From positions 868,001-932,000 of the forward strand of contig OY282379.1 of NCBI GenBank assembly GCA_958295875.1: a stretch of 64,000 bases of DNA, read 5' to 3'. The notes beneath the pieces were generated by a model. It made no database searches and was not told the origin of the DNA. It saw nothing but the letters and a program-made list of their open reading frames with translations. The position numbers and the translations under genes are program-made. Numbering within the stretch: position 1 is the first letter of the stretch; each line of letters opens with the position of its first letter. Shown piece after piece: positions 14,673 to 16,756 of this stretch. The DNA comes from an uncultured Pseudomonadales bacterium. Its GTDB lineage: Bacteria > Pseudomonadota > Gammaproteobacteria > Pseudomonadales > Azotimanducaceae.

Positions 14673-14683
14673 GCGGGCACACT
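14673..14683. repeat. Target-site duplication, left copy (11 bp)
   Basis: GCGGGCACACT directly abuts the left terminal inverted repeat and is repeated exactly at 16746-16756, directly abutting the right one. ISAs1-family elements usually make 8-10 bp duplications, so one outer base may match by chance. Confidence 0.85.
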
Positions 14684-14699
14684 CAGGGCCATCCTAAAG
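14684..14699 (+). repeat. Left terminal inverted repeat of the insertion sequence
   Basis: CAGGGCCATCCTAAAG, reading inward. It matches the right end in 13 of 16 positions. Confidence 0.85.
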
Positions 14700-14863
14700 T
14701 CGGGGCTTCGTTTTCCGCGCCGCGCTGCGATGGGGGAGTTGGCGCGCGCGTTCGGGTTTCCGGAGGTTTCTTCGAGGCTGGCGCGATGGGTTTTGGGGCG
14801 TTTTTCCTCGGATTGGCGCATCTGGGCGGCCCCCGGGCGCGGGAGGGCGCCGGGGGAGGGGCT

Positions 14864-16648
14864 TCAGCGCCGGGGAGGGGTTCCGACCACCTCGCGCAGG
14901 GCCTCGCCCTGCCGGGCGGCGCAGTGGCGGTTGGCTTGGGGCAGGTGGCTGAAGCGCCCGTTGAGCCGGACGATGGAGATGGCGGCGTTGGTCAGGCAGG
15001 CCAGGTTGCGGGGCAGGCGCCTGCGCTTGGCGCGGCATCGGTCCTCGTCATAGGTGAAGTCGCGGTCGTGGTGGAGGCGGTTCTCGATTTCCCAGTGGCC
15101 GCGGTTGAGGGCGAGGAGCTCCGCCGGGCCTGCCCGCTCCGGCCCCAGGGACGTGACGCCGAAGACGGCGTGCGCCGTCGTCCGCCCGGCGCGGACGACG
15201 TGCCGTTCGCGGACGATGCGGAAGGCTTGGCGCCGGCCGGGCAGCGCGGCCAGTTCGTCGGGGGCGCCGTCCAGCGGGATGGCGCGGCAGCGGCGGGACT
15301 CGATCCGGCCGTGGCCCTTCTCCGAGGTCGCGAACTCCGCCGCCGAGTCCCAGTCCAGCAGCGCGAGGTCCTCCAGCAGCGCCGGCCGGTTCTCCTTGAC
15401 CGGCATGGCGTAGTCGGCGCCCAGCCCCACGATCAGGCGCGCCGTCCCGGGGCAGCTGTGCAGCGCGTCCAGCGTCAGGACGCGGCCGGCGACGCGGATC
15501 TCCCGCAGCAGCCGGCGCGCCCCGAGTATCTCCCCGCCGGCGCCGTCCGAGGCCGCCTGCCCGACCGTCAGCCCGCTGCCGTGCTCCACCGCTGCGATCA
15601 GCGTCCGCTCCGGGTTCGGCCCTTCGATCCACTCCGGGGCCGTCTTGCCGTCCAGGGCCAGCGCCCCGCCCGGCCCTTGGCGCGACGCCGCCCAGCGCCG
15701 CAGCGCGCGGTCCAGCGCCTCCGGGTCCAGCGCCGACAGGATGCGGTGGAACGAGGCCGCGGAAGGCGCCGTCCGGCGGCCGCCGCGGGGGCTGCGGAAC
15801 GCCCGGACCGCCGCCAGCTGCGCCTGCGTCAGGCGGCCCGCGAACTCCGCCAGCGCCGTCACGCCCCGAACCCCCGCCAGCTTCCCCGCCAGGGCGATGG
15901 CCAGCACCGTCGCCAGCTGGTGGCGCACCCCCCGCGGCTTGCGGAAGTCGGGCACCTCCCGCAGGAACCCGTATAGGCCGCGGAGCCGCTCCGCCTTCGG
16001 CGGCTCGGCCTCCCCGCAGCCCCACGCCCGCGGCTCCCCCAGGCCGCCCAGCGCCTCCGCCGCGCCACGCCGCAGCGGGCGCACCCAAACCGCCTTCGGC
16101 CGGCCGTGCTCCCGCCAGCCCCCCGAGTCCCGGGCGAAGCCCCGCGTCTCCCCGACCGCCGTCCAGCCCGCCGCCCGGTAGCAGGTCCCCTCGAACTTCG
16201 CCGGGTCCACGAAGGTCTCCGCCAGCAGCACCGGATGCCCGCGGAGCGCCTCCATGTCCGACGACAGGCGGCGCAGCGAAAGGCCCAGGGCCCGCGACGC
16301 CAGGTTCGGAACGCGGAAGCCCGGCAAGACCAGGAACCGCGTGTTGCAGGCGATCAGGTGCAGGCGGCGGAACTGCTGCTCCCGCGCCCAGCCCAGCCAG
16401 CGGTCGCGCGCCCCCACCTTGAACGCCCCCGCCGACCAGCCCAGCAGCGCCGCCCACTCCCCGCCCGGCAGCTCCGCCACCTGCCGCAGCGCCGCCCCGA
16501 ACGGGCTGCGGAAGCCCAGGTAGTGGTGCGCCTCCATGAGGCCGTCCCAGCGCGACCGCTCGCCGGCGTCCCGAACCGGGCGAACCCGGACGTCCCGCAA
16601 AGCGACGCCCCGCGCAGCCTCCGCCATGACAGGAGCCCCGACAGCCAA
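14864..16648 (-). CDS. ISAs1-family DDE transposase with N-terminal DruA-like DUF4338 domain
   Basis: A 594-residue fusion. Residues about 20-195 match DUF4338, the family of the Druantia anti-phage protein DruA: MEAHHYLGFRSPFGAALRQ, then ARDRWLGWAREQQFRRLHL, NTRFLVLPGFRVPNLASR and LLAETFVDPAKFEGTCYRAAGW. Residues about 215-310 are the ISAs1 N-terminal domain (LYGFLREVPDFRKPRGVRHQ). The rest is the DDE catalytic domain: first Asp in LALDGKT, second Asp in VLTLDALHSC, and a candidate Glu in EKGHGRIESRR, with HWEIENRLHHDRDF near the end. Ordinary ISAs1 transposases have about 370-440 residues and lack the first domain. All catalytic acids seem present, so it should be active. An alternative ATG lies seven codons in (16627). 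Confidence 0.93.
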   Translation of the reverse strand: MAVGAPVMAEAARGVALRDVRVRPVRDAGERSRWDGLMEAHHYLGFRSPFGAALRQVAELPGGEWAALLGWSAGAFKVGARDRWLGWAREQQFRRLHLIACNTRFLVLPGFRVPNLASRALGLSLRRLSSDMEALRGHPVLLAETFVDPAKFEGTCYRAAGWTAVGETRGFARDSGGWREHGRPKAVWVRPLRRGAAEALGGLGEPRAWGCGEAEPPKAERLRGLYGFLREVPDFRKPRGVRHQLATVLAIALAGKLAGVRGVTALAEFAGRLTQAQLAAVRAFRSPRGGRRTAPSAASFHRILSALDPEALDRALRRWAASRQGPGGALALDGKTAPEWIEGPNPERTLIAAVEHGSGLTVGQAASDGAGGEILGARRLLREIRVAGRVLTLDALHSCPGTARLIVGLGADYAMPVKENRPALLEDLALLDWDSAAEFATSEKGHGRIESRRCRAIPLDGAPDELAALPGRRQAFRIVRERHVVRAGRTTAHAVFGVTSLGPERAGPAELLALNRGHWEIENRLHHDRDFTYDEDRCRAKRRRLPRNLACLTNAAISIVRLNGRFSHLPQANRHCAARQGEALREVVGTPPRR

Positions 16649-16729
16649 CCCGGCCGACAGTGCAGCACACTCGGGGGCGAATGTCCAGAAACAAAACCTT
16701 CCGCAATCAAATCAACATCTTGCGCGCAA

Positions 16730-16745
16730 CCTTAAAATGGCCCTG
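16730..16745 (-). repeat. Right terminal inverted repeat of the insertion sequence
   Basis: Read on the minus strand it is CAGGGCCATTTTAAGG, pairing with the left end at 14684-14699 with three mismatches. Confidence 0.85.
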
Positions 16746-16756
16746 GCGGGCACACT
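16746..16756. repeat. Target-site duplication, right copy (11 bp)
   Basis: GCGGGCACACT, identical to 14673-14683, immediately outside the right inverted repeat. Confidence 0.85.

Follow-up and report, generated by a model that had tools for sequence, protein, structure and literature searches.

The window analysed here, a 64,000-nucleotide stretch of an uncultured Pseudomonadales genome, contains an autonomous insertion sequence of the ISAs1 family, the transposase of which combines an N-terminal GNAT-fold domain related to the DNA-modifying enzyme Mom with a DDE transposase core. The N-terminal domain, which belongs to the DruA family, is probably a DNA-modifying module. We give this reading, in which we infer the catalysis, the modified base and the role of the domain, a probability of about 0.6.

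A mobile ISAs1-family element

The complete element spans 2,062 bp (14684..16745, minus strand). Its 16-bp terminal inverted repeats are imperfect, with 13 of the 16 bases identical: CAGGGCCATCCTAAAG lies at the end distal to the gene start (14684..14699), while the end beside the gene start (16730..16745) reads CAGGGCCATTTTAAGG on the minus strand. The element is flanked by a perfect 11-bp target-site duplication, GCGGGCACACT, at 14673..14683 on the left and 16746..16756 on the right. The host genome, a single contig of 3.75 Mb, holds six copies of the element, that of the window and five further ones. Three of the five are 99.8-99.95% identical to the window element, one is 97.9% identical, and one, which is disrupted, is 98.0% identical. 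All five have their termini at exactly the same bases as the window element, and their target duplications are 11 bp long in four cases and 10 bp in one. Five same-genome copies with the same ends show beyond chance that the window element is a real mobile unit. Since the copies share their ends and carry target duplications, the element has moved as a unit, as a first-pass annotation of this DNA had proposed from the ends and duplication of the single copy in the window, and it probably did so recently.

The element shares with ISAs1 insertion sequences (NF033564) the transposase core, the DDE triad, CAGGG ends and direct duplications of about 10 bp. It differs in that the plain members sampled are about 380 aa long and lack DruA, whereas the proteins here are about 600 aa, in elements of 2.0-2.2 kb with duplications of up to 11 bp. 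The direct duplications of ISAs1 elements measure 8-10 bp, and those seen here, 11 bp in the window and 9-11 bp in its relatives, are slightly longer. As an insertion sequence the element is an ISAs1 variant, and its additional domain is related to a known enzyme.

The transposase, of 594 aa, is encoded by a minus-strand ORF (14864..16648) with a TTG start, which is uncertain, an alternative in-frame ATG lying 7 codons downstream (16625-16627). Pfam DruA (PF14236) matches residues 22-171 (16136..16585, minus strand; E=1.5e-19, 70.8 bits versus a gathering cut-off of 27), followed by the DDE_Tnp_1-associated domain (DDE_Tnp_1_assoc) at residues 228-320 (15689..15967, minus strand) and DDE_Tnp_1 at residues 350-553. 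The NCBIfam ISAs1 equivalog NF033564 matches residues 248-560 (14969..15907, minus strand) with 155.7 bits versus a cut-off of 70, and this core contains the DDE triad D333, D394 and E522, which is invariant in 17 full-length relatives. The first-pass annotation had described a DUF4338 (DruA) domain, placed at residues 20-195, and ISAs1 domains within one 594-residue protein, and both are present above the Pfam and NCBIfam cut-offs. A model of the full-length protein matches Tn5 transposase and, separately, GNATs.

The DruA domain is a predicted GNAT related to Mom

Modelled with AlphaFold2, residues 1-205 (pLDDT 90.5) show the strand and helix order of a GNAT. Foldseek searches against the PDB returned 124 matches at E<=0.001, of which the 50 listed were all GNATs or GNAT-containing proteins, with the RNA cytidine acetyltransferase NAT10 first; no PDB relatives were found by sequence. 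DUF4338 has independently been called a GNAT (PMC10853773). Going by the model, the fused DruA domain is a GNAT acyltransferase fold, which occupies approximately residues 18-195 of the window protein.

Mom is the DNA adenine acyltransferase of phage Mu and acylates the N6 position of adenine. Of 32 fused domains, 19 matched the Pfam Mom family (PF25680), with a best E of 3.9e-5; the best score, 23.8 bits, is under the Pfam cut-off of 27.1, and no Mom match was listed for the domain of the window itself. DruA and Mom were the only Pfam families matched by more than a couple of the 32 domains, and Mom was the only GNAT-type family listed for them besides DruA. The sole PHROG match was PHROG 1384, 'Mom-like DNA modification protein' (E 0.011). 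An hhalign comparison of the fused-domain profile with a Mom profile built from 13 phages, Mu among them, gave E 6.4e-6 and a probability of 85%. When the 13-phage Mom HMM was run against the 6,639 ORFs of all collected loci, 58 matched, all of them DruA ORFs, and no non-DruA ORF matched even at E 10. A search of the host genome with a Mom-family HMM gave no match, its positive control likewise being unmatched. Profile comparison thus places the fused domain nearest to Mom, a DNA-base-modifying enzyme.

These matches also bear on a different activity, in which the GNAT domain would acetylate a protein, either the transposase itself or a host factor, and so regulate transposition. GNATs mostly modify amines of proteins or small molecules, and SpeG and Naa60 are among the PDB matches. 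The only GNAT-type relative found by sequence profile is nevertheless Mom, an enzyme acting on DNA, and the residues in common are those conserved in Mom, which makes protein acetylation improbable.

Judged by conservation only, the important residues of Mom are, in Mu numbering, H48, Y49, R101, N111, S114, D139, G146 and Y149. Their equivalents in the window protein are, in the same order, H42, Y43, R104, N115, S118, D148, G154 and Y157, and among the 32 fused domains these are conserved in 32, 30, 32, 27, 32, 32, 32 and 32, respectively. The codons of H42 (16523..16525, followed by that of Y43), D148 (16205..16207) and Y157 (16178..16180), the last being the GNAT motif-B tyrosine, all lie on the minus strand, and each of the three residues is likewise found in 13 of 13 Mom proteins. 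The loop that would contact the acyl-CoA pyrophosphate reads x-N-L-A-S where the canonical form is QxxGxG/A, and Mom has a similar N-x-x-S. DruA domains fused to Tn5-type transposases (see below) have lost the Y of H-Y and, in several cases, also Y157, which suggests that some branches may be inactive.

The main rival to a DNA-modifying module is that the domain is a catalytically dead Mom-like GNAT fold retained by the transposase for DNA binding or targeting. Such a role would suit its non-canonical CoA loop, the motif loss in the Tn5-fused branch, where drift is possible, and its fusion beside DDE cores that have DNA-binding parts of their own; it is difficult to reconcile with the catalytic-type residues H42, D148 and Y157, none of which varies among the 32 fused domains, and we consider it rather unlikely. 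The first-pass annotation had suggested something close to this rival, namely that DruA may have a DNA-recognition or strand-handling role borrowed from, or lent to, transposition. The link to transposition is upheld by the wide association of DruA with transposases. Because the fold is that of a GNAT and the nearest relative by profile is Mom, however, recognition, strand handling or any purely DNA-binding role is less likely than modification of DNA bases.

The fused domain resembles phage Mu Mom in its GNAT fold and in the conserved H-Y, R, N..S, D, G and Y; the likeness is one of sequence and model, the fused domains score below the Pfam Mom cut-off, and Mom is a separate, unfused phage gene. 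Mom itself functions in a transposing phage, and jumbo phages encode fusions of Mom domains with endonucleases (PMC7824862). The latter fusions likewise join a Mom-like domain to a DNA-cutting enzyme, which is a restriction-type nuclease there and a DDE transposase here. Among viral Foldseek matches to the GNAT/Mom-like model in BFVD were phage proteins named homing endonucleases (I7KLM9, A0A4Y5JUX8 and A0A7T3KDC2), including a PA5oct protein annotated as such; these may be Mom-nuclease fusions.

Relation to Druantia DruA

The first-pass annotation had labelled the domain Druantia-type, a label that did not hold. PADLOC matched the window protein to no family up to E 10, DruA models included, whereas Druantia-like DruA proteins of about 400 aa in the sampled genomes gave E values of 1e-80 to 1e-197. 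Druantia DruA (PADLOC PDLC00001/PDLC00002) shares the Pfam family PF14236 and an RDxxxGW stretch with the fused domain. It differs in being about 400 aa or more in length, in carrying W-S at the position of the H-Y of the transposon branch, and in lacking the aligned S and D. In the domain tree, ISAs1-fused domains form one group (SH-aLRT 97) and Druantia-like DruA another (100), the branch of the latter being very long (4.68) and its place relative to the transposon branch unsure. The ORFs neighbouring the window element, read by eye from their translations, are housekeeping genes (prolyl- and aspartyl-tRNA synthetase, YebC and RuvC), with no druB-E partners among them. The idea that the domain is Druantia cargo, so that an insertion sequence would have captured a component of defence, can draw on the common Pfam family; it was ruled out as a candidate by the lack of a PADLOC match, of the motif and of druB-E, and we rate it as highly improbable.

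Several other arrangements were seen on the Druantia-like branch. At L115 and L238, a Druantia-like DruA gene of about 400 aa is followed by an ORF of similar size that appears NurA-like by eye. Proteins of about 1,100 aa at L123, L131 and L251 combine a DruA region with a P-loop ATPase part, and that of L123 has weak SspF/DndF matches. They are similar to DndF with an N-terminal DUF4338/GNAT domain (PMC10853773), which resembles the window protein in having DUF4338 joined to a larger protein, there one of DNA defence, and differs from it in its defence context.

DruA-ISAs1 fusions across genomes

Searching GTDB genomes with a profile of the fused proteins returned 179 coding stretches; the best 80 of these correspond to 78 loci. 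The records of the best 80 come from many phyla, a range that the binning of metagenome-assembled genomes (MAGs) could inflate, many of the records being MAGs, and include Pseudomonadales, Verrucomicrobiae, Acidobacteriota, Bacillota, Alphaproteobacteria, Chloroflexi, Desulfomonile and others. Thiodictyon plasmids also carry the fused form, annotated merely as 'ISAs1 family transposase'. No DruA-containing match to the fused form was obtained in the viral and phage collections searched. Ends and duplication were defined for 50 copies, the window's included; these elements are about 2.0-2.2 kb long, with CAGGG-like ends in nearly all and duplications of 9-11 bp. Fused elements cluster separately from a sample of plain ISAs1 transposases taken from related genomes. 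The fused group includes one 'plain' entry, a short ORF of the same genus that lies near the window element and is probably a truncated relict.

In one Verrucomicrobiae MAG (OX638380.1, loci L047-L107), DruA-ISAs1 elements of two kinds number well over 25. Some DruA-ISAs1 transposases, drawn from many phyla, form a subgroup (L034, L089, L096, L100, L102, L104, L106 and L110-L113) in which the reading frame is split at the same place, about 430-450 codons in, at a TTTT(T)CCCCC(C)T tract, of which L034 and L104 have close variants, with the remainder in frame +1. This conserved tract is a candidate site of programmed frameshifting or transcriptional slippage. The window element, unlike this subgroup, has a single ORF.

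DruA domains with other transposase groups

Sampling of Pseudomonadota genomes revealed a second set of DruA proteins on the motif-bearing branch, which are about 300 aa long and have an extra N-terminal part. Within this set, DruA is fused to Tn5-type transposases (Tnp_DNA_bind, DDE_Tnp_1 and Dimer_Tnp_Tn5) at L118, L146 and L246 and to an IS4-type transposase at L010. Even 'stand-alone' motif-branch DruA genes nearly all abut or are fused to DDE transposase genes (IS4, Tn5-type, ISKra4 and IS66), the assignments of neighbouring transposases covering loci other than L245, L254 and L259. DruA adjoins ISKra4 genes at L009, L116 and L126, IS66 genes at L011, L248, L244, L154 and L263, and Tn5-type genes at L117 and L243; the L011 and L248 neighbours fall below the IS66 equivalog cut-off, yet match Pfam IS66.

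In several cases DruA lies inside the ends of a complete element, namely a Tn5-type element of 2,349 bp with a 9-bp duplication (L264), an IS4-type fused element of 2,498 bp with a 10-bp duplication (L268), and two IS66 elements of 3,644 bp (L271) and 2,736 bp (L273), each with an 8-bp duplication. Element ends and duplications are less certain at L269 and L274, and the ISKra4 cases yielded no element ends. The Tn5-type, IS4-type and ISAs1 fusions occupy separate branches of the domain tree, so that DruA and transposases have been paired repeatedly. Fusions arose separately at least three times (ISAs1, Tn5-type and IS4), and DruA is in addition adjacent to ISKra4, IS66 and Tn5-type genes. A DUF4338 gene on Thiodictyon plasmid pTs485 (L279) has an integrase gene and IS91/IS4 transposase genes in its vicinity.

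Selection on the fused domain

The DruA and DDE parts of the fused proteins have been inherited together, their divergences being correlated (Mantel r 0.91, a value reached in 0 of 5,000 permutations), with less divergence in the DruA part (0.41) than in the DDE part (0.56). In most diverged pairs the dN/dS of the DruA domain is 0.10-0.28, and mostly below the value for the corresponding DDE core; the opposite order in two close pairs, window/L005 and L064/L091, is based on few changes. Purifying selection thus acts more strongly on the DruA domain than on the transposase core in most pairs compared. Decay is seen in many of the fused copies, as might be expected if the fusion were neutral and without function. 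Low dN/dS and the recurrence of independent fusions speak so strongly against a functionless fusion that we give it almost no credence.

A possible role for DNA modification in transposition

If the N-terminal domain is a DNA-modifying module, the two parts of the protein could act on the same DNA. The DDE core (D333-D394-E522) would bind the CAGGG ends, cut, and insert the element, duplicating 10-11 bp of the target. Carried to the same DNA as part of the fusion protein, the Mom-like domain would take an acyl group from acyl-CoA and transfer it to a DNA base (N6 of adenine for Mom), either in the element itself or in adjacent target DNA. The substrate could also be RNA or protein. The modification might shield the mobile DNA from host restriction, as Mom does in phage Mu, or serve as a mark that regulates further transposition. 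Adenine methylation regulates when some other insertion sequences move.

Mom-type DNA modification is known in phages such as Mu. If our reading is correct, a relative of Mom resides in or next to the transposases of at least five transposon groups, and base modification would be a recurrent partner of transposition beyond one phage. The recurrence of such a domain in no fewer than four further transposon groups points to chemical marking of DNA by some mobile elements during their movement. DruA, a domain of unknown function, would gain a concrete and testable activity, acyl transfer to DNA. A wider proposal, which we advance tentatively and regard as possible but doubtful, is that the ISAs1, IS4, Tn5-type, ISKra4 and IS66 elements form a class that uses Mom-type DNA-base modification in transposition, with Druantia DruA as a later, diverged offshoot; it would offer a possible origin for this Druantia component. 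In a search confined to openly accessible journal papers, no paper was found that pairs DruA with transposases, Druantia with ISAs1, or DruA with Mom. The link between DruA and Mom and the recurrent pairing with several transposase families therefore appear to be unreported in the open literature, although priority cannot be claimed.

Target sites

The host genome contains a dispersed repeat (e.g. L016-L023) consisting of a hairpin followed by CTGTCCAGAAGGTGMTGATCCCnTTCA, with 27 matches at up to 3 mismatches. Three of the six insertion sequence copies lie at the same position of this repeat and a fourth (L006) lies nearby. Since half of the copies occupy one repeat position, target choice in the host genome is non-random, and this is the kind of preference that a catalytically dead targeting domain might confer. 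Across 50 insertions, on the other hand, neither hairpins nor another general target motif emerged, which counts against that role. General hairpin targeting by the family was ruled out, the median rank over 50 empty sites being 0.66. Copies in other genomes, three in Pseudohongiella (L038, L040 and L041) and one at L045, also appear to lie in dispersed repeats (CCCCTACGAGACC...; GATCCCGTTCACCTTCTGGACAG).
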